Origin: Norana najaformis
Taxonomy: Eukaryota; Annelida; Clitellata; Crassiclitellata; Hormogastridae
NCBI GenBank assembly: GCA_964023275.1
Contig: OZ029920.1
Location: 4,149,012-4,213,011 of the forward strand
Length of the DNA: 64,000 nucleotides
Reading direction: 5' to 3'
Shown: positions 1-64,000 of the stretch, one piece after another
Numbering within the stretch: position 1 is the stretch's first letter
Layout of the letters: each line of letters opens with the position of its first letter
Made by a program: the position numbers and the translations under genes
Notes under the pieces: model-generated
The model's input: only the letters and a program-made list of their open reading frames with translations
Told to the model about the DNA's origin: nothing
Database searches by the model: none

Positions 1-546
1 CTGACAAGGAATGTTTTAGCCGTGTTTTAAACGTAACCAGTGAATAGGACTACTTGACGGACTTAGGCGTTCTCCGGATTTTATTACAGTTCTTGTAAAC
101 CTTGTAGCTTGCAGAATCTTTGGCGTTGATCTTACCTATACCTTCCCATGCATAAGCTTGACCCACAGAAGCCAAAAATGAAAGTCACAGCAAAATCTTT
201 AAGGAATAATCGATGTTAGTATAAGTTTCCTATGTTTAACGACATTTAATGGCCACTGGGACCATTAACTTCGACAATCGCTCACACATTTTAGATACAA
301 TCAATGCAAATAAGCGATTGAACGAATATGTGCCATAAAAACGCGTTGGAAAGGAATTTCAAAATCTCTCAGTGATCTGATATTATTCTATCCAATTTTT
401 TTAGACTGTCATTGGACTTTGTAACGAAACGAATTTTTATGGGGGTACTTCACGTAAACATTAATAAACTAAGATGTAGTAGTAGTTCCAATGTTCAACG
501 ACAGGCAGCGACGGAGTTCAAAATAAGATGTGTACAACTATTCTAC
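1..546 (+). repeat. K-type block, 3' part (window starts inside it)
   Basis: The order of landmarks matches the later part of the K block seen complete elsewhere: the CTTACCTA...CTTCCCATGCAT stretch (about 130-152), a core at 237-275 (TTAACGACATTTAATGGCC), the GGAATTTCAAA...TCTCAG stretch (350-372) and CGTAACGAAACGAATT (near 420-435). An open frame at 412-786 runs across this and the following SINE copies and has no gene-like features. Confidence 0.6.
474..523 (-). repeat. ACT-SINE internal-deletion derivative
   Basis: Both ends of the SINE are present (AGTAGTAGTTCC on the left, GACGGAGTT on the right), but the interior is reduced to about 15 bp. The copy is about 50 bp instead of 111. The strand follows the (ACT)n tail, which reads on the minus strand. 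Confidence 0.55.
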
Positions 547-550
547 CGAA

Positions 551-665
551 TAGTAGTAGCTCCAGTATTTAACGACATCTTATGGCACCAAAAGTCGTTG
601 CCGTCGCCCCCCTCCTTTATCCAGGCTTGGGACTGGCACTACCCCGGGAACAAGACACTAACGCA
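551..665 (-). repeat. ACT-SINE copy
   Basis: This is a near full-length copy in inverse orientation: TAGTAGTAGCTCC, then the TTTAACGACATCTTATGGC core, then CTCCTTTATCCAGGCTTGGG and GACTGGCACTACCCC. The distal end is diverged. No clear target-site duplication was seen. Confidence 0.7.
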
Positions 666-1089
666 TTTAAACGGAAATCGTGGATATATGACGTCGGAAA
701 AGCCATTGAAAGGTGTCTTACCAGAGCCGATATTATCAATGTTAATCGTAAAGTTAAAAATTTCTGAAGCGCTGCTTGAAAGCTAAGCTCATGGCACCAG
801 CTATTCACAAGAGCTGCGTCAAGTCAGAGGAGTGATCCAGATATAGCACGTGAAGAACAGAACTAGGAGGCAAGAAGAGCAGAGACAAAAGGAGACAGAG
901 GGTAAAGTGGGTTATGTTTAGCTTGATAGGAAGGGGAAGGCGGATGATTTAATGGATCAGTTTAGGATACCTTGAATAGGTAGGGTTTTAGTATCGAGTG
1001 TTCAGCTACATTTTATGGCTGTCAGAGCCTTATCCGCCGACCACACTAAAGTTTATATCATTAAACCCCAAGCCGGATTCAACGATTAT

Positions 1090-1168
1090 AGTTCCTCAGT
1101 TTAGCGACAGCTTATGGCATCAAAGGCCTTTGACGTCGCCCTCCTCCCTTATGCAGGCAGTTTCGGCG
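1090..1168 (-). repeat. ACT-SINE, truncated copy
   Basis: AGTTCCTCAGTTTAGCGACA through GACGTCGCCCTCCTCC is clear. The part distal to the ATCCAGG region is lost or diverged. The copy sits inside K block 1. Confidence 0.6.
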
Positions 1169-2238: not shown

Positions 2239-2796
2239 GGTAGAACCAAAAGTTTAATGAGATCCTATGGCAGCATTGGCCGCTGACGGCAGTTGACAAT
2301 AAGTAAAGTCACAATTTGAACAAACCATTAAACTTTAAACTTAAACCGACAGTCGTCAATTATGATAAAAACCTGTGGAGAACAACGGTGCACTTGAATT
2401 CATCGATTGAATTACGCAGCACACTATGGAGATTAACATTATTTAATGGATGATCAATGCAAATAAATGCAGAGCCGATAACTTTGAACCCATTTAAGGC
2501 AGCTATTAACAGTGTTATTTGACATACATAAGCATCAGTTTTCATCAGCCAATCACTGAAATCAGAGTGGGGCAACCGAAACCATACCCAACCCCTCTGC
2601 TAGTCACGCGACTCAGTTTCATTGTGAATACATTCGTACTGAACCAAGCAAGCGAAAAAAGGAATTATATAACTCAGACAAACAACGATATAAAGGTGTC
2701 GAAGCTTAACCTAATAATACTTTAACGGTAGTAGTGTTAATCGACATTTAGAGACTATCATGATCATTGATGTTGATCTTAGCTACCTTCCCATGA

Positions 2797-3075
2797 TCTA
2801 GAGACGGCATGAGTTGAGGGGAATCTGCTCGAATTAACCAAAAAAGAGGCAGCTTCATAATTCGCCTATGTGCTACGAAAGAAGGGAGACTGCTTAAAGA
2901 AACGGATCATCCAAGGCACAATTTCTGGATCCCCAGCTCGAGAAGACCCAAGATGTCATGGGTAGACAACACCAAGTAGTGGACTGAATTAACGTTCGAC
3001 CAGTTATTACAAGAGACGAGGCTTAGAAGGAGATGGCACAAACTTCGCCGTGGAGCAAACAACCTCGGATAGAAA
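2797..3075 (+). mobile_element. LINE ORF2 3'-terminal fragment, decayed
   Basis: A degraded frame contains residues like RRPKMSWVDNTK and a terminal RRWHKLRRGANN, the pattern seen at the C-terminus of many non-LTR retrotransposon polyproteins (xGRPxxxWxDNIxxW...). It is homologous to the fragment at 30646-31100. It interrupts the K block between CTACCTTCCCATG (near 2790) and the core near 3125. Confidence 0.55.
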
Positions 3076-3540
3076 ACGGTTAAAGAAAAGACAATGTTTA
3101 GAGATATGTTATTGCCATGGAGCCGCTAACGTCGACCTTTCCTTATATTTATTATATTCGCCGATAAAATTAGCGATTCAATGAATGAATACAATATGAA
3201 ACGTTTGGAAATTGAATTTCAAAGTAACTCAGCGTAACGTAACATTACTACTCAACCGAATTTATTAAGATTTCTTATTCGACTTCCTAGCGAATCGAAT
3301 GCTTATGGCTACTAGAGCCGTTCACGTCCACCGTACCTGACACACGTCCAGTCAACCTGCACTTACCGATTTTACGAAACTGAAGAATATATAGGGTCCT
3401 TGACAGCGATTGAAAGGTGTCTAAAGACTGACTAACATTATTAATATATGTGAAGGTTTAACGACATCTTGTGGCTTCCGCGGCCGCCGACGTCGACCTA
3501 TAGCCTACATTTTACGATACAGAGGATCTCGTCGTCGAAA

Positions 3541-3630
3541 TATTCATCATCATCGTCGTCGTCGTCGTCATCATCATCAACAACAACAACAAGCACAACA
3601 ACATCACCATCATCATCATCTCATAAACAA
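3541..3630. repeat. Trinucleotide microsatellite (TCA/TCG/ACA)
   Basis: Imperfect trinucleotide run at the 3' end of K block 1. The equivalent positions in other K copies (8476-8545, 29262-29330, 32503-32570, 34920-35045) also carry TCA/TCG runs, so the microsatellite is an inherited part of the block. Confidence 0.8.
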
Positions 3631-4030
3631 CAAAGCCAGTGTTACCGTCATTGATGTCATCATATCCAATAAAGGAATCATGTTGTCTTCGATATCATCA
3701 GTGATGCTACTGTTCACCCCAATGTAAGTTTGAATACCGTTGTTAGAACAACCTTTCAATTAAATTCGCCTCATACTGTTACATACTCCTAATCTCGTAA
3801 ATGTAAATGAAAATGTACACGATTTTTATACAGCAACCGTAGGACCTTTACCCTCCTCATTTAGTCCATTATATTTGTTTGCATACATAATTATTCGGAG
3901 TCGTCTTAAAAAAACCCTTATGCCTTCTCTTCATTCAAGACTTCTCAGTATCTCTTAATGTGTCCGCACACACTTAACATAGCGCCTTTTCTATCTTAGA
4001 GAAGCGCTGAATATGGCCTTCATCGAACAT

Positions 4031-6084: not shown

Positions 6085-6898
6085 ATGCGGATTTAGGCTT
6101 ATATAATGTCAACAGAAGCGATATAAAGGTGTCTAATCGTAACGAGATATTATCAGTGGTAATTGTAAATTGTAACATTGAGAATTTCTCAAGCGCTACT
6201 TAGAAGGTTAGCTTAGGGCACCAGTCTATTCACGGAAGCTGCCGAAAGTCAGATGAGGTGTCGAGAGATATTATTTGAAGAACAATATCAGGATGCTAGA
6301 AGTCAAAAGAGGAAAGGAAATAGAGGTGCTGTTACGGTGGATGTATGTTTAGCTTGGTAACGTATGAGTTTGACGGGCAGAGGTAGGATTTCTTGAATAT
6401 CTGGGACTCAGAAATTGAGTGTCTTATGGCTGACGTCGACCACACTATAGCTCCAGTGACAGAAAACATTACTAGCATTAAAAGAAAATCATGTTTATGT
6501 AATTTAGGAAAACAACGATATAAAGGTGTCTAAGCGTATTTTTTATTAGTAATAGTGCTTACGATGTCTTTTAACTGCCATAGCCGTTATCGCCGACCTT
6601 TCCTTAATTTACATTTATTTTACAATTTATACAATTCATTGCATTGCTTTACAGAAGCGCCTCTTGCGCTAGCTAACGGTGGATAGCTAGTTACTTATGT
6701 TTAACGACGTAGTGTCATCACAAAGATGATTAGCATCGTCCTCCTCTTTATCCGGGGTTCGAATTAGCACCACCCGACTAAATGCAGCGGCAGTATCGGT
6801 AGAGAATTAAGAAAATCGAGAGAATATAGCATCAAAATAGCGACTTAAAAGTATATAAACAGTGTTAAATATAGCATTCATACGAATTTTAAGGTTAC

Positions 6899-7011
6899 AA
6901 ACTCCGCCATTGCCTTGTTTGGGGTAGCGCCAGTCCCAAGCCTGGATAAAGGAGGAGGGCGACGGCAACGGCCTTTGATGCCATAATCTGTCGTTAAACT
7001 GAGGAACTACT
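6899..7011 (+). repeat. ACT-SINE copy with 8 bp target-site duplication
   Basis: Full-length 113 bp copy. The perfect flanking repeat AAGGTTAC (6891-6898 and 7012-7019) marks the target site. Removing the copy restores the ATTTTAAGGTTACGTTTAGA sequence found at paralogous positions. Confidence 0.85.
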
Positions 7012-7692: not shown

Positions 7693-8800
7693 ATTAGTCT
7701 TTAACGACACCTTTCGGCTGCAAGAGCCGTTCTCGTCTACCTTTCTTAATTTACATTTCCTTAGCCTTTTGCACTATTCCCAAATTTCAGCGCTTAAACA
7801 GCACCATCTAAGAGTGGTTGAATATTAGTATCGATTGTTTAACTACATCTTGTGGCTGTAAGGCCATCTTACCTACCTTCCCATATATAAACTAAGCTGG
7901 TTTAATATTCTCTTATCGTTTAGAGCTACAAAGGCCGAAAATAAAAATATCAGTTTAGTCATACAGGAAATTTTTAAGCAGTAATCGGTATTAGTAGGAA
8001 TGCTATCTGTTAAAATACATTTCATTGTGGCTAATGGCGTTAGCATCGACCTTTACTTATAAACATTTATAATTACCGCCGAAACAATTAGCAATTTAAC
8101 GAAAATCTACAGTATAAAACGCGTGGAAATGCATTTCAATTTTCTACACCTAGCTGGTCATTATCCAACACAGTTTCTTACAACTTCTTATTCGACTTCG
8201 TAACGAAACGAATTCTTATGGCCATTCACGTCGTCCGTACCTCACGTATTGACATATGTTATAGATGATCAATTTACGAAAATGAGGAATATATAAAATC
8301 TGTGAAAGCGATTTAAAGGTGTCTCAATATTGCCTAGCACTATTAATAAATTTAAGTGTTAAACGACATCTTATGACTTCCAAAGCCGCCAAGTCGACCT
8401 GTATCATAAATTGGAAAATGCCTACGTCTTACTGCAGTAAGGTATTTGATACAATAATATACCATCTCGTCGTAGGAGTCATCATCATCGTCATCATCAT
8501 CTTTAAAACCATCATATCCACCATATCATTATTGTTATCATCAAAACCATGATCGGAATGATATCGTCTTCGTAATCATTAGTAATTCGATGCTACTTAT
8601 CACCCTGATCTCAATTTGAACGTCTTTGTTAGATAAAATATTTTCATCTAAATTCTCCTCATGGTGTCATGTGCTCCAAATATGGCAAACTTAAATGAAA
8701 TATACGGTTTTTAAATTAACGGTTTTTATACGGCGATCGTATAGCTGGGACCCTCTGCATTTATTCCATTTTGCACCGGAGTGGGGTGGGAAGAACCTTC

Positions 8801-9099: not shown

Positions 9100-9341
9100 G
9101 TTCCCACAGTTTAACGACATCTTATGGCAGCAAAGGTCGTTGACGTCGCCCTCCTCCTTTATCCAGGCTTGGGACTGCCACTACCCCCCAAACATGGCAG
9201 TCGCGGGTGTCAATGTAGTTCCTCAGTTTAACGACAGCTTATGGCATCAAAGGCCGTTGCCGTCGCCCTCCTCCTTTATCCAGGCTTGGGACTGGCACTG
9301 CCCCCCAAACAAGGCAGTGGCGGAGTTGCGGGTGTCAATGT
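9100..9341 (-). repeat. Nested ACT-SINEs with perfect 14 bp target-site duplication
   Basis: An inner copy (9217-9327, 111 bp) lies at the distal end of an outer copy (9100-9207). The inner copy is flanked by a perfect 14 bp direct repeat, GCGGGTGTCAATGT, at 9203-9216 and 9328-9341. This is the cleanest evidence in the window that the 111 bp unit is a discrete insertion with defined ends. In retroposon orientation it runs AACTCCGCCACTGCC to GAGGAACT. Confidence 0.9.
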
Positions 9342-10970
9342 TAGTTCAGTTAGACTTATATAACATCGGAAAAAACGATTTAAAGGTGTATAATCGTAGC
9401 ATGATAGTTTCAGTAGTAAATGTAAATGGTAAAACTGAGAATTTCTCAACCGCCAAGCACCACCCTATTAACGAGCGCTGTGTCAAATCATATGAGTTAT
9501 CCAGTTGTACTATGTGAAGAACAATATCAGAACGCTAGAAGACCAGAGGAACTTGTCACGTGAACTGTGTTACCTTGAAACAACTCGGAAGCCGGGGTAT
9601 TTGATGGAACAGGGTAGGATTTCTATAAAATGTGGGACCTTAGAGTCGAGTGTTTAAAGACGTCTTATGTATGGCTGCCAGAGCCGTTGACATCGACCAA
9701 ATACGCTGCGTTTTGTATAAATGTTACAATAGAGCGCTTGAAAATGATTAAATAATTACGAGGAAACGCGATATAAAGGTATGTAAGCGTAAACTAATAT
9801 AGAGAAGCCGAAAATAAAAATATCGGTTTACTTACGGAAGAAATATTCTAAGCAAAAATTAAAGACATTCCATGGCGGGTGACGCTTTTAACGTTGACTT
9901 TCGCTTGCATTTATAATTATCGCCGTAGCAATCAGCGATTTAATGAAAATTAACAATATATTACGGGTGGAAAGGCAATTTGAAAGTGTGTCACCGTAGC
10001 CTAATATTACTGTGCCTAGTTTCTTGCGACTTGTTTTTCGGGTTCGGTTCATAACGAAACGAATACTTTGGCTTCACGCCACGTCAGCTCAGGAAACAAT
10101 AAATTTACGAAAATGAGGAATATATAAAACCAATGAAAGCGATTTAAAGGTGTCTAAACAATGCCTAACATTATTAATAAATTCAAGTGTATAACGACAT
10201 CTTGTGACTTCCAACGGCGCCAACGTCGACCTTGTTCCTTACATCGGAATGTACCTACGTCGTACAGTTGTAAAGTATCCTTTTACAGTAATAGAGCACC
10301 TCATCGTCGGAGTCATCGTCGTCATCATTATCTTTAAAGCATCGTATCCACCTACAACAACAACAACACCTCGAGAACTACGTCGTAACTGTTATCATCG
10401 TTATTGTTATCATCAAAACCATGATCGGAATAATGTTGTCTTCGTGATCATTAGTTATGTAATGCGACTGTTAGCCTAAAGTCAATTTTAACCTCATTGT
10501 TTTAAAAAAAAATTCATTTAAGTTCGCCTCATGTTGCTATGTGCTCTCAACTGGCAAACGTAAATGTAAATGTACATGTAAACGGTTTTTACACAGTGAC
10601 CGTATTGCCCTGATCCTACGCATTCAACACACATTTTATCTGGTTTCATACGTAATTATACGAAGCAATATTATGCTTTATCTCAATTCAGTACCTATCA
10701 ATATCTGTTCATTTGTTCACACTTAATATAGCACTGTTTCTGACTTTCGGAATCGCCGACTATCCAAGTGTTTGTAGTGTTAAATTCATTAGAAGCATCA
10801 AGTTCGTTTGCAGATACCCCACTGGCGTGCAAAGCCCAGCCAACATATTCCCACGCATAGAATTGTGTATAGTGTTTACCGACATCTTTTGGCTGCTAAA
10901 AGCCGTTGACGCGGCAGTTACCCTGTCAATGGACAAAACACCTTTATTTTACGTAGCACATCGAATACTT
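9342..10970 (+). repeat. K block, copy 3
   Basis: A module at 9357-9390 is followed by GAGAATTTCTCAACCGCC (9436), a purine-rich stretch with GGAACAGGGTAGGATTT (about 9606-9622), a module near 9750-9785, the CGAAAATAAAAATATCGGTT stretch near 9808, a core near 9880, the CATAACGAAACGAATAC stretch near 10050, the module at 10121-10200, and then the trinucleotide-rich part near 10290-10440. It is internally shorter than K1. No gene is visible. Confidence 0.6.
10121..10200 (+). promoter_or_regulatory. Well-preserved example module
   Basis: TATATAA at 10121-10127 is followed by GCGATTTAAAGGTGTCTAA at 10139-10157 and by the AACGACATCTTGTGAC core from 10193. AGGTGT starts 27 nt after the TATA box and AACGAC starts 45 nt after AGGTGT. 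If the box acts as a metazoan TATA element, transcription would begin near the GTGTC of AGGTGTCTAA. Other clear examples start at 8290, 21608 and 52875. Confidence 0.5.
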
Positions 10971-11027: not shown

Positions 11028-11146
11028 AACTCCGCCATTGCCTTGTTTCGGGGTAGTGCCAGTCCCAAGCCTGGATAAAGGAAGAGGGAGACGGCAACGG
11101 CCTTTGATGCCATAAGCTGTCGGTAAACTGCGGAACTACTACTACT
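11028..11146 (+). repeat. ACT-SINE copy with 12 bp target-site duplication
   Basis: Full-length 119 bp copy ending in a (ACT)4 tail. A perfect direct repeat AAGATATAGTAA flanks it at 11016-11027 and 11147-11158. Confidence 0.88.
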
Positions 11147-12770: not shown

Positions 12771-13024
12771 CTAAGGTACCGATGGAAAATAAAGAATATA
12801 TATACTGTTGAGAAGCAATATAAAGGTGCTTAAGCATAACTTAATGTCACTGAGATCAGAATTAGCGATTAAACATATGTTGTTTCTGTTTAACGACTCT
12901 GTGCCATAACAAAAATGATTAGCGTCGCCCTCCTCCTTCGTCCGGGCTTTGGACTTGCATCAACCGCGCGTAGCAGGGTTTAGTTACATGACAAGAGGGG
13001 AATACTAAATGACACAGGAACATC

Positions 13025-13300
13025 CTACGGAGGAAATGAGTCCAGGAAGAGGTGAGTTTTTAGTCTGGTCGTGAACGCCAAAAAAGATTTTGCAGAGCGA
13101 ACATTTGCCTGAAGTGAGTTCCAAAGTCTAGTGCCAGGGACAGAAAAGGCAATCCTGAAGAGAGCTGTTCTGGTCCACGGAATAGTCAGATTTAGACAGC
13201 AAGAAGACCTGGTGGAGCAGAGACAATGTTGGGAGTCAGTACAGTGAAGAGAGAGAATTTGGCTGAAATGTAGAGTCCTATACACAATCAACCCAGACGT
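13025..13300 (-). pseudogene. LINE ORF2 C-terminal fragment
   Basis: An 88-residue minus-strand frame (13291 to 13025) contains VPGTRLWNSLQANVRSAKSF and ends TRLKTHLFLDSFPP. This resembles the extreme C-terminus of CR1/L2-like or Jockey-like LINE polyproteins (G.RLWNSLP..VR....SF...LKT.LF). The start is arbitrary because it is a 5'-truncated retrotransposon. A paralogous remnant without an intact frame is at 52190-52500, in the same block context. Confidence 0.65.
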
Positions 13301-14130
13301 TTAGACCTATTAACGCCTAAAATATAAATTTCTTATAAGAAATTCAATTAATATTTGAGCCACGAGTCAATATTGGTAGTATTATTCCGTGTTTATTACA
13401 TTATTTCGCTGTATGACTCTTTGCGGTCGACCTTGGTATATTTACATTTGAAACATTTTTACAACAGCCGTCACCATTTTTTGCGAAGAATATATAAAGT
13501 GTGCTAAATACATTTTAAAAGGTGTTTAAGCTTAGCTATAAGGAATAGTTATAATCAGTCATAATCTTAGAAAAACTGGTTAAATTGTCTAAAATTGGTT
13601 AACTAAGGCTTTATGTATACAAAATAAAAATGAGTTATGTTAAGTTGTGGTTAATTAAGTTACTTAGGGTAATTATCATTTTATAGCTAAGATAATAATT
13701 ATTTTCTTATTTCTGCATTTATTAAGCCCCACTGTCTAATTACAAAACGACAATCGATGGCGATGAGCATTTGTGAGTGAAGGACTTCCTCAATGCTAAA
13801 TACTAACTGTGCTGGCGTTGCATGACTCTATTGTGCTAACCAGCGTTGCCTCATCAGCACCAAGCCGCCTTTCGAAACCTCACACGAGTTTTATAGAGCA
13901 TCAATGTTGTGTGTTTAACGACGTCTTTGGGCTGTCTGACTGTTTACTTCTTTATTTCTCAAAATTCATTTATCATTTCTACAAAAAACAAAGCCGGGAA
14001 TTTATAGCTCTGGAGAAAGCGCTTTAAAGGTGTCTAAACATACCCTAAGATAAATAGCAGTGTCGGGTGTTTCACGACTTCTAACGTCAGCAAGAGTAGT
14101 TTTACGTGAAGCTTAATCTCCCAAAGCCGT

Positions 14131-16093: not shown

Positions 16094-16186
16094 TAGTAGT
16101 GGTAGTAGTAGTGGTAGTGGTGGTAGTGGTAGTGGTAGTAGTAGTAGTGGTAGTAGTAGTAGTAGTGGTGGTAGTATTGGTATCGT
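16094..16186. repeat. (GTA/GTG)n microsatellite
   Basis: Imperfect GTA/GTG trinucleotide run. It abuts the K landmark ATCGTAAATCATAAAGTTGA at 16184. Confidence 0.85.
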
Positions 16187-16664
16187 AAATCATAAAGTTG
16201 AGAATTTCTGAGGAGCTACTTTAGCGCTAAGCCGATTCACGAGTCAAGTGCGAGGATTTGTCCAGATTTACCCGTGTGAAGAACACAATTCGGGTGGGAG
16301 AAGACAAGAGAGAAATGGAGACAAAGGAACTGTTAAAGTGGGTCGTGCTTAGGCTGAGAGAAATGAGAAGGCGGGTGATTGGATGGATCAGGGTAGGATT
16401 TCTAGAATAGGTGGAACTTTAATTTCGAGTCTTTAACGACATTTTATGGCTGCCAGATTAACCGGTGAAATCAACCACACTTTACTTACGAAAAACCACT
16501 TGTGTCAAGTTATTCAATAAACGAAAACAATTATTATATAACCCTGAGGAACAGCGTTATAAAGGTGTCTAAGGGTGACCTAATATATTAGTTTTAGTGT
16601 TTAACGATATCATATGGCAATCCGAGCCGTTGAAGTCGACCTTTCTTAAATTTAAATTGTCTTA
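16187..16664 (+). repeat. K block, copy 4 (5' part)
   Basis: Landmarks: GAGAATTTCTGAGGAGCTAC (16200), the purine-rich stretch with GATGGATCAGGGTAGGATTT (16382), the core near 16440, TATATAA at 16535 with AGGTGT at 16563, and a core near 16600. It is interrupted at 16665 by SINE B. Core 3 resumes at 16916. Confidence 0.65.
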
Positions 16665-18007: not shown

Positions 18008-18780
18008 AAACAACAACAACAACAACAGCGACAACATTGAAAACACCATCACAGCTATCACGATTGGCCTCATCCCAAACATTGTTATCATCATCGCCGT
18101 CGTCGTCGTCGTTGTAGTATAATGGGCGTCAAAAGCATTAAAACAATCACCGTCATCATCATCATCAACGCCATTATCAAATTCGTCGTCGTCATCATCG
18201 TCCTGTTTCTTGAACAATATAACGCGTCGTTATTTATCTATCGAATTATCGAACTATCGAACTATTTAACCCTTTGCACGTCTAAAAGAAGTGGTCTAGA
18301 TACCATTTGCTTCATCTACTTTCGACGCCCTTCTCCAAAACGCGCCATCGATGGTGACAATTCAAGACCAGGATATGGGAGAAGGAGGACTTTAATCATC
18401 TTCACTATGAGACAGCTAGACCGACACTAGTACAATACAACATAGTATTATTAGGCCTATGTTGAGGAGAAATGGCGATTATTTACTGTTTAATGGGTCG
18501 GCGATGTCGACATCTTAAGTTACACAGCTATCAGAAGATTCCAGCCATAGTGGTTCCCGTGTTTAACGACATCTTATGGCATCAAAGGCCGTTGACTTTC
18601 ATAGCGAAAAATTTCCTTACAATTAAATCTATGGACTTAAGCGAAAATGAACACTATATAGTAAAGGCAGGAAGGTATATAAAGGTGTCTAAGCGAAAAC
18701 AAAAATTCATCAAAAATTTTATAATTAACTATGTTTGTGCATCTTCAAATTGCTTTTTTTGACACTAAATAATCCTAATT
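18008..18780 (+). repeat. Trinucleotide-rich stretch and diverged modules
   Basis: AAC and TCA/TCG/GTC runs fill 18008-18215. A partial ACT-SINE is at 18546-18595 (GGTTCCCGTGTTTAACGAC). A module has TATAT near 18653 and AAAGGTGTCTAAGCG at 18681. No gene is seen. Confidence 0.5.
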
Positions 18781-19900
18781 TTCGTTTAATCTCTCGCGAA
18801 ACTCTGATACTGCCTTTAGGCTGTGGTTCCATACTTAAGCCTGGATAAAGGAGGACGAAGCCAATGACCTTCGTTATGACACCGCGTTGTTAAACAGAAG
18901 CTACCACCAAAGATTATATAAATTTTTAATTTATAAGATAACGCAAGGTAAGGTTGACGTCAACGGCCATGGCAGTCGCAAGATGTCGTTAAACAATAGA
19001 AACCCACTACTATACGACAGATGAGGTAAGGTAAAGTCGACATCAAGGACACTCCCATCCGCAAGATGTCGTTAAACGGGTCATACTAAAGATGAGTTTG
19101 GAAGAATAATATATAAAGACGGTAGAGTAATATATGTGTGCAGCTTCAGGCTCTTCCAAAAACTAAGAATGAGATCGTCGTCCACGGTCCGATTCTTCTC
19201 GAGAAACTGATGTCTTATACAGCACACTAAAGTTATAAGCTCCATTTCGACACCTTTAAATCGCTATTAGCGGCGGTATAAATTGAGGAACTACAAAGTG
19301 TATAATCATCATAAGCTGTCCGCGTACGATAAGGTCGAAATAAACCGAACTGGCATTGACAAGATGTCGCTAATGAGTCAATTTAATTGAACAGCATACG
19401 CTTCAGCCTTTAATGAGTGCATCGCGCGGATATTATTAAAACCCGCATTTAACAGATTAATTGCAAAACTGTTCTAGAATGCCCGAAAATCGATTCAGCT
19501 TTTCATTTTCTTCAGGAAGGGAAACAGCTGATGTTTGACAAAATTTTAGTAATTCGGGTGCAAGAAAATATTCCAGTTGGTCTATAAACACTTCGGAAAG
19601 CTGTGTATGAAATGATCTGCAGAAAGCTAACGGTTTTTAGTAGCCATGTAAAATTTTTATAATTTTTTTTGAGGATTAATAATGATGATGACAACAACAA
19701 CTATGATTATAAAAAAGCCGTAGATCTTCGCTGAACAGCGAAATCTGTTTTCTTTTTTTATTCAATTCGTACAGAACGTTTCTGAAACTCACTAAATGCC
19801 TATTATCTGGTGGTGCCAGTCAGAAGCCTGGATAAAGGAGGAGGATAGCGACGCTGACATCTTCAATACGACACTGCATCGCTAGAGACAAACTACTGTA
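18781..19900 (-). repeat. P block, copy 2
   Basis: Reversed cores: GCAAGATGTCGTTAAACAAT near 18977 and GCAAGATGTCGTTAAACGGG near 19061. TCAGGCTCTTCCAAAAACT lies near 19146 and the reversed element TTTCGACACCTTTAAATCGC near 19245. Old + strand ACT-SINE relatives are at 18799-18908 and 19785-19897. Colinear with 4330-5470 and 58320-58990. Confidence 0.65.
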
Positions 19901-23297: not shown

Positions 23298-23310
23298 ACA
23301 CTGGCCAACA
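23298..23310 (+). repeat. Left terminal inverted repeat
   Basis: ACACTGGCCAACA, preceded by TATT. It matches the reverse complement of 25911-25923 exactly over 13 bp. Confidence 0.85.
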
Positions 23311-25923: not shown

Positions 25924-25927
25924 TATT

Positions 25928-46347: not shown

Positions 46348-48074
46348 TTCAGTACAGGTGTCTAAATGTAACCAAATATTTTTATTATCATTAGGGTTTA
46401 ATGACTTATAATGGCTGCCAGAGACACTCGGTTCGATCTTTCCTTAATTTGCATTTAATTTACAATATGTGCTCTTGTCAAATTTTATTGTTTAAACGAA
46501 TTTGTATTCTTGTTGAATTTTAATGACGAATGTACAACGACAACTTATGACTGCTAGGATCATTTAAGATGATCTTACCCATCTTCGCATGTATTATAAA
46601 CTTAGCTGGTTCAATCTACACAAGTTGTTCAGAAACCGAAAATTAAAAAAAATCAGTTAAGTAGCCCAGGAAATACCTTAATAAGCAATATTGGTAATTA
46701 ATATAAATATTTCATGTTTAAAGATATTTTATGGCCGTTAACGTCGACCTTCGCTTACTTTCGAAATTACCGCCGATATGATCACGATTTAACCAAAATT
46801 TCCAATACGTAATCCGAGGAAAAGGAATTTCAAAGTCACTTGTATTCTATCCAGTTTCTTACGATTTCTTATTCGACTTCATAACAAAATGAATTCGACC
46901 GTACTGCGCATGCCAATAAGTGTCTTTACTGTACAACTGAAACCAAAAAATTTAACTAAAATGTAGAATAAATAATGTCTGTGAAAGTGATTTAGAGGTG
47001 TCTAAACTTAGCCAAGTAATGCTTTGATTATTATTAGTAGTAGTAATATCAAGTTTTTAGCGACATCTTGAGCCTGCGAGAGCCTTTACGTGAAAGTTAG
47101 TCGGACTTATATAGAGTCTGAGAAGCGATTTAAAAGTGTCTATAGTTAACCTAATAATATCAGTAATTTAATCATATCATTAATCATATTTCAGTAGTAG
47201 TAATTTTAACCACAGCTTGTGGCTTATTTGGTTGTAGAAGTCCATCTTATCCACGTGGTGTCACGACCTGTGAGTTCCTTAAACCCACATGACCCGATCT
47301 TAATCTGGTTAATTGGACGTTTTCTCGGTTAGGCTAAGTATTTAAGAAAACAGCGAACATCGTGAGAGAAACAGAAACGGGAAGAGCGAGAGAGAGAGAG
47401 AGAGAAAGAGAGAGAAAGAGAGAGAAAGAGAGAGACAGAAGGAGCGAGAGAAAGCGAGAGAGAGCGACAGAGATAGAGACAGAGACAGAGAGTGACAGAC
47501 AGACAGACAGAGAGGCATTAGTGTATTCCATTTGCCATTTGTCAATAATGCCTGAGTTCATCGCTATGGAAACTTCTAAAATTCATAGTAAAGTTGATAT
47601 GGCTGAGGTTGGGTTTGTATTGATATGACTAGGTATCCAGGCTGAGGCCCTAGCAGAAGGGGGCAGCAGGGCCATGTGGCCGGGGCTTCACATGGTATGT
47701 GTCTTCATCTTAACATATTATTTTAGTCGACTTTAAACTAAGAAAGAAATATTCTTATTCCAACCAAACATTTCCTATTTATGATTCGGTAGCTAGCAAA
47801 AAATCTTAGGCATTCTTTTAATTTTTCTTATTAATTATAAATATTTATTTGTATTTTTTAATGATAATTAACTATTGCGATTTGATAGGCTTACGGTCTG
47901 CATGCTTCGAGATTGCGGCCTTATATCTCCAGTGGCCCAAGCCTCTGAATCTTTGAAGGGCCCTGGCTAGAACATCTCAACCGTACTCAATGCAATGTTA
48001 ATGTATCTACAGTACTAATGGTTTCGCCGAGTCATGCAGCAACCTATATCTTGTGGCAAAATTGTACCCCTCTC

Positions 48075-51700: not shown

Positions 51701-53134
51701 TGATTTCTGTGGCTGTTGACTTCTTTAAATCTCCTATTTACCGATAAGTTGTTGTTCATGATTAACCGTGTCACTTGCGCCGGATCGATAAAAGGTGTAT
51801 AAAGTCCATAAAGTAATTCAAAGGTGTCTAAAGAGAGCAAATTTTTTCAGAGAAATCGCGTGTTTAACGAGGTCTTGGGGCTTTCAGTAGCAATGACTGC
51901 GACCTCTCTTTGCATTGCATTTTATTTACTAATCCCGAATTTCAGTACTTTCGTGAAGTCATACAGGAATTTGTTGAAAACCAGTAGCGTGTGTTTAGTG
52001 ACATCTTGTGGTTGAGATGACCGTTGACGTCGACTTAACCTCATCTTCCTATGCATGAACTTAGTTCAGTCTTCTCATATCGTTTATCTAAGAACTTCTA
52101 TAGCGCCACGGTAATAATGATCAAGGTATCAATCAATGGTCACTGCTAAGCAAAATCGTTGTTGAACCCAACTTCCATCTTAAGTCCGGTCGAAAGCCAA
52201 GGCGGAATTCAGAAGATATAGAGACATTCAACTGAGGAAATGAGTCAAGGAAGAGGTGAGTTTTTGGTCGAGATCTGAAGGCCAGCACAGACTTTGCCGA
52301 GTGAACATTAGCCGGAAGAGAGTTCCAGAGTCTAGGGCCAGCGACAGAAAAGGCAGACCTAAAGAGGGTTGTTTTTGTTGACGCAATAGTCAGATTAAGT
52401 CATCCAGACGGCCTGGCTGGGTAGAGACAAGTCTTGGGGGTCCATACAAAGTGAGGAAAGTGAGATTGGCTGAAGTTTAGAGTCTTGCATTGACTTAGCC
52501 AAGACGTTTAGACCTACTAACGCCTAATGCAAAAATTCTTTTAAATATGACAGTAATGTTTTTAGCCACGAGTCAACATTAGTAGTAGTATTTCCTATTA
52601 ATTAGATATACTGGCTGCATGGCCCTCTGCAGTCAACTTTCGGTTTCAATTATTCAGAACGGGGTTTGATCGCATTAGGATTGCACGCAAATGAACAATA
52701 TATAATATGTTGGAAAGACATTTAAAGGTGTCTACGCGTAGAATAATTATAATAATATTTTGCACTCTGTTTGAAACATTCCGTCTTTGGCTTCACAACA
52801 AATTCTTGTCTCCAGAGCCATTCACGCTAACCGCAGTACAGTTATTTTAATATAGCGATTAAACGAATTAGGAATATATAAAGTCAGAGGAAGCAATTCA
52901 AAGGTGTTTCAAAAGAGCCGACTGTTATTATTAAAATCAAGCGTTTGGAAAAGAATTATGGTTAAAAGTGGTTTTTAATGATCTGGTCCTTCATAAATCT
53001 CGAAATGCATAAATGATTTAATAATACAAATGATAGGTGACATCTTAATTATTAATTTTTAAGGCTATTATTATTATTATTATTATTTATTAAAATTACT
53101 ACTACTATTATCATCATCATTATCATTTTCGATA
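51701..53134 (+). repeat. Modules and S block, copy 2
   Basis: Modules at 51821 and cores near 51865 and 51995-52030. S landmarks match 12380-13560: the minus-strand LINE at 52190-52500, GACGTTTAGACCTACTAACG near 52504, TTTTTAGCCACGAGTCAACA near 52559. Modules follow at 52725 and 52875-52910, then ATT/CAT microsatellites 53066-53130. Confidence 0.6.
52190..52500 (-). mobile_element. LINE 3' fragment, decayed
   Basis: Reverse complement resembles the C-terminal coding sequence at 13025-13300 (for example AGAGTTCCAGAGTCTAGGGC and GAGGAAATGAGTCAAGGAAG on the + strand). The frame is broken. It has the same position within the S block as copy 1, so the LINE inserted before the block was duplicated. 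Confidence 0.65.
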
Positions 53135-56690: not shown

Positions 56691-57394
56691 TACAAGCTCA
56701 TTTACTTATTCTCAAAAATTCCACACCGTCTTCGTCACACATCACCAGGCATAAATCGATGGCGCACCAGTGCATATCTGAAACTCCAGTCCATTCGAAT
56801 GGACGAGGCAAATGGGATGAGAGTCTAGCAGTTAAATAATTTAGGGAATATTCGTCCATTTTTAAAACTATTAAACTGACCAGAATATTATTAGGAATAG
56901 TTTTTAAGCGAACACTGATTCTGATGCACAATGTTCTTCAACAAAATGCAATTTTTAAAGATTATATTATATTAGATAACATTAAATTAACTTACATTAG
57001 ATCAGATTAAATAAAATTAAACGATATCTAGTCCTAATAAGTACGTTCTATGCATGAAAGTTATTCTTTGTATTAACCAACAATAAGGTTCGTTTGAATC
57101 CAATATAAGAGGAGGTCACCATCAAACGGCCCTGGCAGCCACAAGATATCGTTAAGCACTCGACAACACCAATAATTAAGAAAACATTTACAGGCATTTA
57201 ACTCACTTTTCAGCCAGAATATAATCTTTATTTTTTCGCTGAATTGCAAGTTTTATTGATCGATTGAATTTAACGGCTATGGAAGCCACAAGATGTCCTC
57301 AAAAAATTGCTGCTACAAATAAGTGCTCAGCTGTATTTGACACCTTAAAAACGTGCTGCTCTACCACTATAATTTATATAATGCACGTTCAATC
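56691..57394 (-). repeat. N block, copy 4
   Basis: ATAAATCGATGGCGCACCAG near 56751, CATGAAAGTTATTCTTTG near 57053, reversed core CAGCCACAAGATATCGTTAA near 57135, GAAGCCACAAGATGTCCTC near 57283, and AAGTGCTCAGCTGTATTTGA (57321). Confidence 0.65.
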
Positions 57395-57503
57395 GCCACT
57401 GCCTTGTTTGTGGGTAGTGCCAGTCCCAAGCCTGGATAAAGGAGGAGGGTGACGGCAACGGCCTTTGATGCCATAAGCTGTCGTTAAACTGCGGAACTAC
57501 TAC
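57395..57503 (+). repeat. ACT-SINE copy
   Basis: GCCACTGCCTTGTTTGTGGG to GCGGAACTACTAC. The 5' end lacks a few bases. AATC precedes and follows it (57391-57394, 57504-57507) and may be a short target-site duplication. Confidence 0.75.
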
Positions 57504-57592
57504 AATCACGAGCTATAACGGCAAGCAGTCCTGATGGAAGGTCCCTGTTAACAGCCGTGGCAGCAGGAAGTTGTTGAAGACTCCCAAATAAT

Positions 57593-57599
57593 ACTACTG

Positions 57600-57666
<67 letters not shown>

Positions 57667-57841
57667 CACTACCACTACCACTACTACCATTACCACTACT
57701 ACTACTACTACTACCACTACTACTACTACTACTACTAATACTAATACTACTACTACTAATAATAATAATTAAAGACTTCTCTCCTATTATTATTGTTGTA
57801 ATATTCATTCATTCATTCATTCATTCATTCATTCATTCATT
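57593..57841. repeat. (ACT)n and (TTCA)n microsatellites
   Basis: ACT/ACC/AAT repeats at 57593-57770 and (ATTC)n at 57806-57841. The (ACT)n run starts about 90 bp after the ACT-SINE at 57395. Confidence 0.88.
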
Positions 57842-58926
57842 ATGTCGGTTTGTGTTTCTGCGTGTCTGTCTGTCTATCTGTCAATGATATGACATGTGGT
57901 TATCTAAAGATCGAAAGCACCTAATTTCACATCTAAAAGATGTCGTCTTAATGCTTTATCTTCCTATCAACGCCATTCTCCAAAAACCGCCACTGCCTTT
58001 TATCGGTTGGTGCCAGCCAGAAGCCTGGATAATGGACGATTTTAGCGACCCGAATCATGTTTGACACAGCATCGTTAAGCAGAAACTATTATTAGGCCTA
58101 TTTGGAGAAATATCAATTAGTCATAGTATCTTCTTTTAAATGACATCGGGTGGCTTAAAGGTCCATTGATTCCGATTGCATTGAATTTCTTCACTCCTGG
58201 GGATTCTTGTAACGATTGAACGAAAACGGGAAAGATATGAAAATAGAAAGAAGCGATATAAAGGTGTCGAACTATAACCTAAAAATTCATTATAATTATT
58301 ATATTTAACTGTGTTTATGCACAATTAAAACGTTTTTTCGACGCTAAATACTCCTAGTTTTCGTTTAATCTCTCGTGAAACTCCACTACTGCCTTTAATC
58401 GGGTTGTGCCAGACCGAAGACTTGATAAAGGTGGCCGACGCTAACGATCTCTGCATGACACAGCGTAATTAAACAGAAAACTACCACCAAAGATCATAGT
58501 AAGTATCCATTTATAAGATAACGTAAGGTATGGTCGACGTCAACGGCCCTGACAGTCGCAAGATGTCGTTAAACAATGGAAACTTCTTCTAAAGTTTATA
58601 ATAGCAGTCTAAAACGACAGATGATGCGAGTTAACGTCGACGTCAATGACCCAACCATCCACAAGATGTCGTTAAACGTAGGATACAAGAGATGAATTTG
58701 AGACATTATTATAAAAATATGTTAGGGCAATAATGAAAGATGTATGCAGCTTCAGGCTCTTCCAAAAAGTAAAAATGAGACGTCAACGCCCCTGACCCTC
58801 TAAAAGATTGGTGTTTATATACCACCTAATTTTGTAAACACAGTTTAGACACCTTTTAATCGCTTCTCCTTACCTTATAAATTCCTCATTTTCGTTTATT
58901 GTTAGTAGTATCTTATTGTTAGTAGT
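57842..58926 (-). repeat. P block, copy 3
   Basis: Old ACT-SINE relatives on + at 57985-58098 and 58383-58492. A + module near 58230-58270. Reversed cores GCAAGATGTCGTTAAACAAT near 58557 and CACAAGATGTCGTTAAACGT near 58660, TTCAGGCTCTTCCAAAAAGT near 58750, reversed element TTTAGACACCTTTTAATCGC near 58844. Colinear with 4330-5470 and 18781-19900. Confidence 0.65.
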
Positions 58927-59038
58927 AACTCCGCCACTGTCTTGTTTTGGGTAGTGCCAGTCCCAAGCCTAGATAAAGGAGGAGGGCGACGGTAACGGCC
59001 TTTGATGCCATAAGATTTCGTTAAACACTGGAACTACT
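58927..59038 (+). repeat. ACT-SINE copy with 11 bp target-site duplication
   Basis: AACTCCGCCACTGTCTTG to GGAACTACT, 112 bp. ATTGTTAGTAG lies before (58915-58925) and after (59039-59049) and is perfect. Confidence 0.86.
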
Positions 59039-59049
59039 ATTGTTAGTAG

Positions 59050-60170
59050 CAGTAACATTAAGTTTTGAACAACATATCGTAGGTGCCAAGGTTATATAAA
59101 CCAGAATTACACAAAAGGTTCTTCAAAGTAACATCCAATTGTTTGGTAAAACTTTTCCATAAACTTTTTCTGTGCAAATTTGTTCTTTACAACAATGTAG
59201 CAGTAGATGTGAAATGGATTCCTGAACGTTGCACTTAGCGCATAGATCAGTGGGATGCAGTTCAGGATTGTAAAATCTGTTGTTTCAATTCAATCGACCC
59301 AGTCTTAATCGATTTAATTGTACATTTGAGTTTCGTTAAATAGAAGTTAGCAAAGAAGAGGGGGCATCAGAATTTCAAAATTTTCAAATTAAATTAACAA
59401 ATTTACAAATCTTCATGATAAATTAAACTACACTAGACGCTATCACATTAGGTCAGATTGTGTTAGAATAGATTTGGTTAAATCATAATTTGACCAAACA
59501 AGCACGTTCACTGCATGTAGATTATTCCTTGCATTAACGAACAGTAACGTACGTTGAAACAAAAAGTAAAATGAGGCCTGCGTGAAACTGGTCTGGCAGT
59601 TACAAGATGTCGTTAATCTCGCTATACTACAAATTATATCACATTGCTCGGACACCTTTAAATCAGTTGTTTTGGGCGCTATTTATGGCTCATTTTCGTT
59701 CTTTCGATAGCCTATTATATGATCATTCCATATATTGAGTGGGGGACGTTACCGCCCCTGTCAGTAACAAGACGTTGTTAAACACTCCATGCTACTTATA
59801 TAAATTAAGGACACATTTAAAAACATTTAAGTCGCTTTTCCGCCACTATCTTGTTTGGGGGTAGTGCCAGTCCCAAGCCTGGATAAAGGAGGAGGGCGAC
59901 GTCAACGACCTTTGATGCCATAAGATGTCGTTAAACAATGGAACTACTAAATCGCTTTCCACCGTAATACAATCCTCATTTTTTCATTGATTTGCAAGTT
60001 TGATTGATATGTGGGACTTAACAGCCCTGGCAGCCACAAGATGTCTTGAAACAATAGCTGCTACTAGTAAGTGCTCAGCTGTATTCGACACCTGAAAATC
60101 GTGTTGCTCCACGCTATAAATAGCGCGTTCACTCGCCAGTTCGGGTAACATAGAACTGTCCGAAATAAGG
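59050..60170 (-). repeat. N block, copy 5
   Basis: 59100-59390 is unrecognised. Then ACTAGACGCTATCACATTAG near 59433, GTTACAAGATGTCGTTAATC near 59598, ACACCTTTAAATCAG near 59661, a reversed core near 59765, GGCAGCCACAAGATGTCTTG near 60029 and AAGTGCTCAGCTGTATTCGA (60070). Confidence 0.62.
59839..59948 (+). repeat. ACT-SINE copy with about 10 bp target-site duplication
   Basis: TCCGCCACTATCTTG to GGAACTACT. Flanks AAGTCGCTTT (59829-59838) and AAATCGCTTT (59949-59958) differ once. Confidence 0.82.
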
Positions 60171-60468
<298 letters not shown>

Positions 60469-61232: not shown

Positions 61233-62262
61233 CCACCTTCTTCAGCCAACAGCGGTAATTGCATTTATGACAGCGACCTTTGAAACGCCCCATCTGCTGT
61301 GTGTCGCCTGTTGCTATCTTTACCGTCTCTCCCTCCATATACTAAAGGGCTCTTTCACCGATGGCTGAAGAGCTATCGTCGGAGTTTCCTCGCGCGTTTC
61401 TATCCAAGGAATGCAAAGAGATTTCCCAAGCTCCAGAATGAAAATTCTGCACACATCATATCACGACTTCAGTCGGGATATTTGCCCAGCCAAACAACGG
61501 AACTGCTGTGCTCTGAAATGTCAAGCAGAGTAAAAAAACAGTTGACGGTGACCAGCGACGAATATTGGCAACAGAGTTTGTCCAGAATGTCCACTGTTCC
61601 CTGTGTCCTATTATAATCTATAATGATGTTCGGCTTGCTTTCCACCTCGGGATAAATGGTCTTGTATTTGATGTAGCGTTGAAAACATTACAAAGCATCG
61701 GTTTTTCTTCGGATTGACTGTGCTTCCCGTTTCCGATCAGCCAGCATCTGCCCAGGAATCACTCCGTTATTTTTGTGTAAAGTACCAATTATAGTAGTAA
61801 TTTCAGTGTTTAACGACATATTATACGGCAGTAAAGGCCGTTGACATCGCCCTCCTCCTTTATCCAGGCTTGGGACTGGCTCTACCCGACTAAAGGAAAT
61901 GGCGGAGTTATCATAGGAATTAGTAGTAGTTCCTCAGTTTAACGACATTTTATGGCATCAAACCATTAACGTCGCCCTCCTCCTCTTTCCGGGATTGGGA
62001 CTGACACTTACCCAAACAAGGCACTGGCGGAGTTTGAGTTAATTATGGTAAGCTTATTTTGTAGAAGTGGCTGTGTGTTTTGCGTGAAAAAGGTGTCCAT
62101 AGTAACATTGCGTCCTGATCCATATAACCGCTGACAAAGATTCTTTACAACACGCGCCCCTTGTAATTTCTCAGCTGTGGCTGTCAATTTTTCCAAGATA
62201 TGCTTGCATGTGGCCACAGTAAACGGTGGCGCAATCTGAACCCACCCAAATTTCTGTTCCAT
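61233..62262 (-). pseudogene. piggyBac-like transposase, fragmented
   Basis: From 62262: GSGRNVTMDTFFT and LLQNKLTII, then a break by two SINEs (61793-62040). The minus strand then reads GTLHKNNGVIPGQMLADRKR, a stop, and in another frame IIIDYNRTQGTVDILDKLC and FFTLLDISEHSS. In piggyBac transposases these are the RNxTxDNxFTS, KLTxxGTxRxNK and YNxxKGGVDxxD blocks in this order, the last with a catalytic Asp. A short Cys-rich end (GRCHKCNYRCW) precedes a stop near 61230. Stops and frameshifts make it non-functional. The N-terminal half is missing. The + frame 61299-61616 is antisense to it. Confidence 0.85.
61793..62040 (-). repeat. Pair of ACT-SINEs inserted in the piggyBac relic
   Basis: Copies at 61793-61909 and 61922-62035. 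AATTAT flanks the pair (61787-61792 and 62041-62046). Removing the pair joins KLTII to GTLHKNN of the transposase, so the SINEs are younger than the piggyBac insertion. Confidence 0.85.
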
Positions 62263-62540
62263 ATTTCGCAGGCTTAATTAACTTTCATTAGCGGCAGATA
62301 ACCGTCGGGACATCTTACACGCTAATTATCAACAAAAATGGCAAATGTATGACATCAATCACGTGACCATCAACCAAAATAAGTAAGACAAACATATGCA
62401 ATCAAGGAAAATTCATCTAGGAACAGATACAACAAAAGCGTAATGCATAGATCCATTGCTGTAGAACTATGCAGCACAGATACAGACAGTGGGGTGAAAA
62501 ATTCACCATATGTTGGCTTCTAAATGTTGAAAACATGATC

Positions 62541-62925
62541 GGTCTATTCTTCTTGTCCATGGGTTTAACGACACCTTATGGCAACTAAGGCCGTTGACGT
62601 CTTCGACATGCAAATGTTGTTGACGTTGTCCTTAAGTTCATTTCTTTCTTCTTATCGTTTCCTTTAAGATTTTTGTTTCCGTAGGTAATGTATGTATTTT
62701 TTTAAACTGATTGCAGCACGACATGGATGAGAGACCAAATGCAGGCGAAGGGGGTTTTGTTGACTGGTTGATGGCACCTTTGTCGACTTCTTGTTGGTTT
62801 TCTTCTTGTTAGAAGACTGTCCACTGTCCATTACGGCTCTTGTGTGTCCATTAAAGGTCTTCTCAGTTGCTATAAAGCCTTTTTTTCAATATCTGATTTA
62901 TATATTTTCTGTATTTTTTGTCTTT
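62541..62925 (+). repeat. Repeat Z, copy 2
   Basis: Near-identical to 20590-20955 (TTCTTGTCCATGGGTTTAAC, GCACGACATGGATGAGAGAC, GTTGACTGGTTGATGGCACC). It ends with a minisatellite much longer than in copy 1. Confidence 0.75.
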
Positions 62926-63170
62926 TCACTGGCCATTTCGGCTCTTTTGTAGCCTTCAGGCTCTTTTGTGGCCATTTAAGGCTCTTTTGTGGCCATCAGG
63001 CTCTTTTGTGGCCATCGGGTTCTTTTTTGCGATCAGGCTCTTTTGTGGCCATCGGGCTCTTTTTTGTCCATCAGGCTCTTTTGTGGCCATAAGGCCCTTT
63101 TGTGGCAGTCAAGGCTCTTTTGTGGCCGTCAGGGTTCTTTGTGGCCATTTAGGCACTTCTCAGTTGCCAT
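62926..63170 (+). repeat. Minisatellite, GGCTCTTTTGTGGCCATCA unit
   Basis: About a dozen units of 17-20 bp. Copy 1 of repeat Z has only two related units (GGCTCTTGTGTGTCCATTA type). Unit length varies and frames on all three + phases stay open over it, so the three overlapping frames are not evidence of a gene. Confidence 0.88.
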
Positions 63171-64000
63171 AAAGGTTTATATAAGTGCGATATCAAGGAC
63201 ATAAAGGCTACGGCAGCGTTTGAAATGAACTTCGATTAAGCGAACCAACTATTTATAACATAGGAAAATGCGATTTAAAGGTGACAAGAGGTTTAGTAGT
63301 GACCGTGTTTAACGACATCTTGCGTGAGCCTAAGCCGTTTTACGACAAACTCAAATTGTGAAACGAAAGTTAACCAAACCATCGATTTAGCGAACATGAG
63401 CTATAAAAATTTAAGTTTGGAGAACAAAATTTAAAGGATGTCTAAGCGTTGCTCTAATAATTAATTAATAATTAATATTAAGTAATCTAAGTGGCCCAGT
63501 GGTCCATTGGTAACTATTTTGTCAAATGTCATGTGGTTGCTGGTTCGACTCCTGGGAATGTTGTTCGCGCACACCGTGCCGCTGTCACCAAGCAGTAAAA
63601 TTTGATCCCAGTGTAAGCTGTGAATAAACGGCAAGTCCTGCGATGCACTGGTCCCGTTTCCAGGAACTTGGGATTCGTCCATTGCCGGATTAAGGCCTAG
63701 AAAGGGAGATGTGGGATATGGGATACTTTACTTTTTTCTACTAAGCATAGGCTAATTTTAGAAACAGTTTCGAGAGTTGAAAGCCATCTTACGACTGCCA
63801 AGACCATTAACGTCGAACTTCCATCGATCATGCGTAGGCAAGAGTTTTATAAACGACTTCAAATGGTCGAATAATAACGAGTGAATCATTGCTACAGATA
63901 TTTTAATATGGCACTTCATCGGATATCTCATTACAAGCTCTTTTATCTATTCTTACAAATTTCACATCCCTTTTTATACAATACCAAGAATAAATCGATT
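63171..64000 (+). repeat. Modules and start of another N block
   Basis: Modules with GCGATTTAAAGGTGAC (63269) and TTTAAAGGATGTCTAAGCG (63430), cores near 63310 (GTGTTTAACGACATCTTGCG) and 63785. The last 60 bp (ACAATACCAAGAATAAATCG) match the ATAAATCGATGG start of N blocks near 14300, 42972 and 56751. Confidence 0.58.
63488..63736 (+). repeat. tRNA-derived SINE B, longer copy
   Basis: A box GTGGCCCAGTGGT (63491-63503) and B box GGTTCGACTCC (63542-63552) in tRNA-like spacing, then the same body as 16665-16915 (CTGTCACCAAGCAGTA, GTCCATTGCCGGATTAAGG) and the end GGGATACTTTACTTTT. The two internal boxes are the pol III promoter type of tRNA SINEs. Confidence 0.78.

Follow-up and report, generated by a model that had tools for sequence, protein, structure and literature searches.

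A probable decayed subterminal satellite domain in the annelid Norana najaformis and a core sequence in common with dispersed repeats

A stretch of 64,000 nucleotides from the genome of the annelid Norana najaformis (the window, which here always means this whole stretch at its full length) is probably part of an old satellite domain of the subterminal, or subtelomere, zone that has since decayed, been rearranged and been invaded by transposons. In the assembly, which consists of 17 contigs (C1, C8 and so on) and 608 Mb, the window is placed at C8:4149012-4213011; it is eukaryotic sequence with a G+C content of about 39% and abundant microsatellites. That architecture is known in kind, from subterminal satellites with higher-order repeats and transposon insertions, and the interesting part is the link between a satellite and short interspersed nuclear elements (SINEs), since a 39-bp core that is part of the satellite monomer is also, over 38 bp, the common 3′ end of two dispersed mobile elements. 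A first-pass annotation of the same DNA had described the whole window as one old module family in a shuffled higher-order array, of an architecture for which it knew no described element. Apart from that supposed novelty the pattern it flagged is largely real and its shape well described, the blocks being of several kinds.

1..64000, strand., segment of probable decayed subterminal satellite domain (placement on C8; core density of surrounding samples)

Core, monomer and higher-order unit

That a short core recurs through the window is borne out by an iterated profile, which finds it 124 times in the 64 kb at E ≤0.01, 95 times on the plus and 29 times on the minus strand, and not once in any of 10 dinucleotide shuffles of the window. 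The strands of these matches form 19 runs where 45 are expected, a figure reached by 0 of 100,000 shuffles, and because joint duplication lengthens strand runs, the runs favor amplification as a block over independent insertions. A 19-mer of the core, with one mismatch allowed, has 8844 matches in the genome (control 2), 34 of them in the window, and none in viral contigs. No Rfam family matches the core at gathering thresholds, and core and SINE fragments sought as text in papers with open-licence texts gave no match identifying either. Neither the core nor the SINE discussed below acquires a name from the literature on the termite SINE Talua and on German cockroach SINEs (PMC9191728, within the part of that paper drawn on here).

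The core is the second of two conserved boxes in a monomer family, M, of about 155-190 bp, the first (box 1) being GATWTAAAGGTGTCTAAR. An M profile of 169 columns, grown from the block K described next, matches 63 stretches of the window over 110 columns or more (46 plus, 17 minus) and has 78 further matches in 35 sampled loci, L009-L043, while the window has 37 occurrences of box 1 at up to one mismatch, about 90 times the genome mean density. Block K is recurrent and about 930 bp long, and its consensus, from 45 rows, is internally repeated with sub-units 78%, 73%, 64% and 60% identical (E 3e-19 to 8e-8). It consists of four M monomers, and on leaving each out in turn 71 of 89 monomers score best with their own position class (11/11 for m1, 24/24 for m2, 18/30 for m3 and 18/24 for m4). 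The internal repeats and the position specificity together identify K as a higher-order unit of related monomers: distinct monomers are repeated as a block, with like positions closer to each other than neighbors are. The unit is largely a local product, since seven of the nine genome matches of a K-specific 35-mer at up to three mismatches (control 0) fall within one domain at C8:3.99-4.33 Mb, the other two being near the start of C15. At model positions of about 297-474 the K profile picks up copies of SINE A as well. The copies of K in the window, all on the plus strand and all from the iterated profile, are as follows.

2656..3719, +, block K, model positions 2-927 (E 7e-133)
7823..8605, +, block K, 68-927 (E 2e-150)
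9802..10475, +, block K, 236-925 (E 4e-139)
21943..22527, +, block K, 52-652 (E 6e-85)
31274..31754, +, block K, 269-735, contains a SINE A copy (E 3e-94)
34131..35105, +, block K, 1-926, seed copy
40455..41018, +, block K, 68-708 (E 2e-87)
46521..47087, +, block K, 71-693 (E 1e-88)
52455..52946, +, block K, 179-664 (E 7e-59)

In a self-alignment of the window, a check suggested in the first-pass annotation, 64 matches reach 400 bp or more; all but one of them, 63, share orientation, and identity is 58.5-78% except for one pair at 92% (repeat X, below). Self-matches at E ≤1e-6 involve a fraction of 0.687 of the window. With a second scheme of scoring, the chains spanning at least 700 bp number 104 on the same strand and 27 on opposite strands, the latter implying that orientation is mixed at a larger scale, and two stretches of the array stand inverted.

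57096..60171, −, inverted stretch with 10 successive minus-strand cores (57155 to 60052) and inverted K pieces (core and K profiles)
18720..19884, −, inverted stretch with minus-strand cores, K pieces and A matches (core and K profiles)

The blocks are smaller than the multi-kilobase ones first described, self-matching blocks being mostly 0.4-1.2 kb and the longest self-alignment 1256 columns, and the array is less than the whole window. K and M profiles together cover 0.451 of it, and 0.658 is reached with R (a block treated below) and the less reliable profiles P, N and S, which were used for this figure only, P and S having drifted to match both strands at the same places. The 14 uncovered stretches of at least 400 bp, 19.8 kb in total, include a long interspersed nuclear element (LINE), a young 2.6-kb element, minisatellites and microsatellites. 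The annotated constancy of internal order holds in part: the order A-R-core-K does recur, imperfectly, with five of the seven R copies in the window directly after a same-strand A copy and five of the seven running into a core match.

A further claim, that one short core is kept while the spacers diverge, fares less well. In 21 long K copies compared in matched register, identity between copies is 0.618 for the core, 0.618 for box 1 and 0.564 for the spacers; of 147 placements of the labels, 5, counting the true one, give an excess of core over spacer at least as large. In a wider set of 45 rows and 721 pairs the corresponding values are 0.617, 0.592 and 0.544, and the core exceeds the spacers in 83% of the pairs. 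The core is somewhat better kept, yet far from being a conserved core among free-running spacers. Strong conservation of the core is ruled out by the matched register (0.62 against 0.56), and so are unrelated spacers, an impression given by an ungapped profile, as a gapped alignment of monomers showed the spacers to be homologous across monomers. Spacers as conserved as cores, which the annotation had named as counting against it, are approached and not quite found, with the core slightly ahead and box 1 equal to it in the long copies. That otherwise different repeats contain the core is probably explained by its being common to the satellite monomer and the 3′ ends of SINE A and repeat X; selection inside the array is not the favored reason for its recurrence.

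Placement on the chromosomes

Around the window, cores are dense (9-25 each) in eight of ten 10-kb samples from C8 3.95-4.41 Mb, the remaining two having gene frames with 2 and 0 cores, and of 10 distant samples of the same size eight have no core, one has 2 and one has 1. Fifteen 2-kb samples spread over C8 3.1-5.0 Mb are mostly coreless (12 with none, the others with 1, 2 and 5), so the domain is patchy.

On the scale of the genome, box 1 at up to one mismatch has 3812 matches (11 for a reversed-pattern control). Among the first 100 exact matches listed, on C1-C4, 89 are at most 5 Mb from a contig end, a zone that makes up a contig fraction of 0.18. An exact variant of box 1, CGATATAAAGGTGTCTAAG, has a complete list of 84 matches on 10 of the 17 contigs (control 0), and the nearest contig end is no more than 5 Mb away for 79 of them, 5.5 Mb for 82 and 8 Mb for all 84, the genome fractions for those end zones being 0.28, 0.31 and 0.45. 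C8 accounts for 38 of the 84, and without it 45 of 46 are within 5 Mb of an end. As measured with box 1, then, the family shows the concentration in particular chromosome zones by which a satellite is recognized; tandem copies are not independent, so no p-value is attached to the end bias.

Telomere repeats, (TTAGGG)n, are present at five of the 12 contig ends read, namely the right end of C1 and the left ends of C6, C7, C11 and C13. C1 has 32 exact box-1 matches, 30 of them in the final 2.2 Mb ahead of an end of pure (TTAGGG)n, and on C11 and C13 box-1 matches are 1.6-2.8 Mb and 2.8-4.5 Mb from the telomeres, so that on these three contigs box 1 is found 0.5-4.5 Mb from the telomere-bearing ends, not directly at them. 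Tandem units of 187-188 bp occur at C1 62.83 and 62.96 Mb (L048 142-609 and 3315-3760; L049 223-674), 1 Mb from the telomere. Neither end of C8 shows telomere repeats, and as its start (L053 1-1500) lies inside M-like repeats, the chromosome end seems to be missing from the assembly.

Dispersed repeats within the array

The description of a single family stands for K and the M monomers, which are homologous, position-specific and present on both strands in runs; it does not extend to block R and most of block D, which are dispersed transposons, or to full copies of A. From their sequence the last appear to be a SINE found genome-wide and not an array module. The profile of A spans 94 positions, about 55 of them outside the core; on the opposite strand the core comes last, as the 3′ end of the element, and a (TAC)n-like tail follows it. 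Near-full copies number 78 in the window and sampled loci together, of which 77 could be examined for flanking repeats. Repeats of at least 8 bp flank 21 of the 77, and after six were dropped as lying within element or tail, 15 of 77 remain against 0 of 77 in a shuffled control; A thus has the target-site duplications and simple-repeat 3′ tail of a SINE. A 20-mer of A has 6745 genome matches (control 0), 22 of them in the window at about 30 times the mean density, and the first 100 exact matches listed are spread along C1. ARAGORN finds no tRNA gene in the window, and no tRNA head is recognized in A. Repeat X, 91-96% identical to two copies on C1, likewise ends in the core plus a short trinucleotide tail. 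M has only about 38-45 bp in common with SINE A and repeat X.

9111..9323, − (SINE sense, core = 3′ end), two SINE A copies in tandem (14-bp flanking repeat at second copy)
33906..34111, − (SINE sense), two SINE A copies in tandem (tandem repeat and core profile)
38687..38916, + (SINE sense), two SINE A copies in tandem (tandem repeat and core profile)
11032..11126, + (SINE sense), SINE A copy (13-bp target-site duplication)
6904..6997, + (SINE sense), SINE A copy (9-bp target-site duplication)
20583..20991, − (own sense), dispersed repeat X, 3′ end = core (96% identical to L044 over 322 bp)
62547..62951, −, repeat X, second copy (92% identical to 20584-20991)

Block R was at first taken for a module of the array, and all blocks except D were held to be built of the same core. 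R instead resembles the 3′ end of a LINE, a fragment of which, with a reverse-transcriptase reading frame at 27277-28662, is present in the window. The R profile had absorbed LINE copies and its consensus was rebuilt from 13 of 17 rows, those dropped being one window LINE copy, L019, L034 and L043. The rebuilt consensus matches the 3′ end of the window LINE, inverted, at 62% over 285 columns (E 4e-15), and taken singly eight of the 13 copies match it at E ≤1e-3 and two weakly (0.026 and 0.083). An R 32-mer has 891 genome matches (443 + 448; control 0), and the 100 of them listed fall on 12 of the 17 contigs, interiors included. Homology to a LINE 3′ end together with genome-wide dispersal marks R as LINE-derived and rules it out as an array module; to judge by sequence, R is the 3′ end of an old LINE, trapped in the higher-order unit in the orientation opposite to its own sense, and a single old LINE insertion may have been duplicated along with that unit.

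27277..28820, +, LINE fragment, reverse transcriptase reading frame and 3′ end (Pfam RVT_1, E 2e-27; 3′ end matches R consensus)
685..1042, +, block R (R profile; LINE 3′-end match; inverted relative to own sense)
6100..6441, +, block R (R profile; LINE 3′-end match)
9357..9698, +, block R (R profile; LINE 3′-end match)
16182..16476, +, block R (R profile; LINE 3′-end match)
20188..20552, +, block R (R profile; LINE 3′-end match)
29984..30294, +, block R (R profile; LINE 3′-end match)
33495..33861, +, block R, within seed (R profile; LINE 3′-end match)

D had been singled out as the exception among core-built blocks, which is right for most of it. Its first ~300 bp are found dispersed, with matches to L021 (C8 6.0 Mb) and L028 (C14 10 Mb) at 65-71% identity, and are ruled out as a module; its last ~160 bp are array sequence and recur in K regions. 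A younger arrival is a 2.6-kb element, pieces of which recur at 98-99% identity on C2, at the start of C12 and elsewhere on C8; it has two overlapping reading frames with a weak match to a zinc-finger-associated domain (E 0.004, below the Pfam cut-off).

12998..13435, +, block D, first ~300 bp dispersed repeat, last ~160 bp array sequence (sample matches; K regions)
52208..52645, +, block D, second copy (self-comparison, profile)
23284..25926, −, young dispersed 2.6-kb element inserted in the array (98.5-98.7% identical to C2 copy)

Elsewhere in the window, 43862-46353 has reading frames of 232, 142 and 138 amino acids with no Pfam match and no relative among the sampled loci, and 1925-2150 is, by eye, a SINE-like sequence other than A with matches in two sampled loci at 76-77%. 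A 1.2-kb pair at 36186-37418 and 53070-54255, 70% identical, consists in part of tetranucleotide repeats (AGAC, GATG). Minisatellites are present at 62940-63148 (19/56/77-bp units), adjoining the edge of a repeat X copy, and at 48091-48320 (38-bp units).

History of the domain, alternatives and related systems

Several observations weigh against a subterminal satellite as the origin of the window. The word subtelomeric can be used only loosely for a stretch 4.2 Mb from the start of C8, and the end bias was measured with box 1 and not with whole M monomers. Among the first 100 exact box-1 matches listed, 11 are further than 5 Mb from any end, including two in the interior of C1, and CGATATAAAGGTGTCTAAG is not found on seven of the 17 contigs. 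Seven of the 12 contig ends read are without a telomere, so some could be centromeric or incomplete. The 187-188-bp units on C1 carry box 1 and not the core, their remainder differing from the window monomer, which makes M a loose family with a wider range than is apparent from the window. Head-to-tail monomers are suggested by the internal repetition of K and the tandem box 1 of C1; in the window Tandem Repeats Finder reports no array of 150-190-bp period at a score of at least 50, and successive cores, annotated as 200-300 bp apart, follow each other irregularly, at distances of 80 bp to 4.2 kb that cluster near 165 bp. Pairwise monomer identities are unusable, as shuffled sequence reached 0.73 under the gap settings concerned, and scores alone are informative (158 for one pair, against a maximum of 106.5 in 200 shuffles). 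Three of the 13 single R copies have no match to the window LINE, and genes stand between pieces of the array, one with a Kelch frame (L010 688-1605, E 1.5e-20) and one with a leucine-rich-repeat frame (L015 1254-2744, E 7e-56).

With these points allowed for, the history envisaged for the satellite domain is that M would have been amplified in the outer chromosome by unequal exchange or segmental duplication, and that the higher-order unit probably already held the LINE 3′ end, R, when it was amplified on C8. Homogenization would have ceased long ago, leaving the array to decay by point change, inversion and the insertion of SINE A, X, LINEs and the young 2.6-kb element.

An array built mainly by retroposition is a different proposal, in which SINEs with the core and a trinucleotide tail at their end inserted repeatedly, in the same orientation, into the tails of older copies, and the head-to-tail runs so formed later decayed. 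It draws on the core and short trinucleotide tail at the end of both A and X, on the three same-strand tandem pairs of A with their 111-135-bp period, on the target-site duplications that support retroposition of A and on the roughly 30-fold density of A in the window over the genome. We regard it as unlikely; the ordered recurrence of blocks with an old LINE 3′ end is left unexplained by it, as are the confinement of K to C8:3.99-4.33 Mb with relatives only on C15 and the preference of box 1 for contig ends when the listed A copies are spread along C1.

Satellites can have a protein-binding box, the CENP-B box of alpha satellite being an example, and were the core a protein-bound site under selection, such as a box of chromosome-end or centromere chromatin, the array would be a functional platform. 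The presence of the core in M, A and X and its identity above that of the spacers, in long copies and wider set alike, are in keeping with such a role, for which the chances nevertheless seem slim: the excess is small, being reached by those 5 of 147 placements, box 1 equals the core in long copies, and its presence in A and X is consistent with a common retroposon 3′ end. Least credible is an origin without any satellite, in which a single-copy locus with many dispersed repeats underwent ordinary segmental duplication; the same-order blocks, the trapped transposons and the genes near by speak for it. Against it, K is internally made of homologous monomers, and box 1 recurs in tandem on C1, every 188 bp, as well as close to chromosome ends.

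The core, as a retroposon 3′-end signal, could have passed between SINEs and the chromosome-end satellite and so have linked retroposition with growth of the subterminal array. This is put forward tentatively and by either of two routes: the satellite may have been seeded by tail-targeted SINE insertions of the same orientation and then amplified with higher-order structure, or the SINEs may have taken their 3′ end from the satellite.

Human centromeres are flanked by monomeric and higher-order alpha satellite, with diverged monomers, higher-order units, inversions and transposon insertions. The window shares all of these features, the likeness being one of architecture; its array is placed toward chromosome ends, and a centromere is not evidenced here. 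In subtelomeric satellite DNA such as that of potato (PMC3276127) a family is likewise concentrated toward the ends of many chromosomes with chromosome-biased variants. In contrast to it, the array here is largely decayed with no homogeneous array in the window, its zone is several Mb wide, and genes and many transposons are interspersed. As far as these sources extend, the nearest described link of SINE and satellite is that of the SINE-derived satellites of squamates, which have 70-290-nt units cut from a SINE, sometimes from its 3′ part, and are probably subtelomeric (PMC10702118). There too a tandem repeat shares a segment with a SINE, whereas in M that segment is limited to the short stretch in common with A and X and descent could be in either direction. 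SINEs with a LINE-derived 3′ end and a simple-repeat tail are described in the same text, and A is like the SINEs there in being short, with a 3′ core, a (TAC)n-type tail, target-site duplications and thousands of matches on both strands; it is unlike them in that its profile is of 94 positions only, no tRNA head is recognized and no partner LINE is assigned.

The locus is thus a probable fossil of a subterminal satellite domain kept in a chromosome-scale assembly with its layers still readable, from monomers through a local higher-order unit, a trapped old LINE and inversions to younger SINEs. Direct evidence on how SINEs and satellites give rise to each other is scarce, according to PMC10702118, and, because the same core ends two other repeat families, this locus could provide a test of it.

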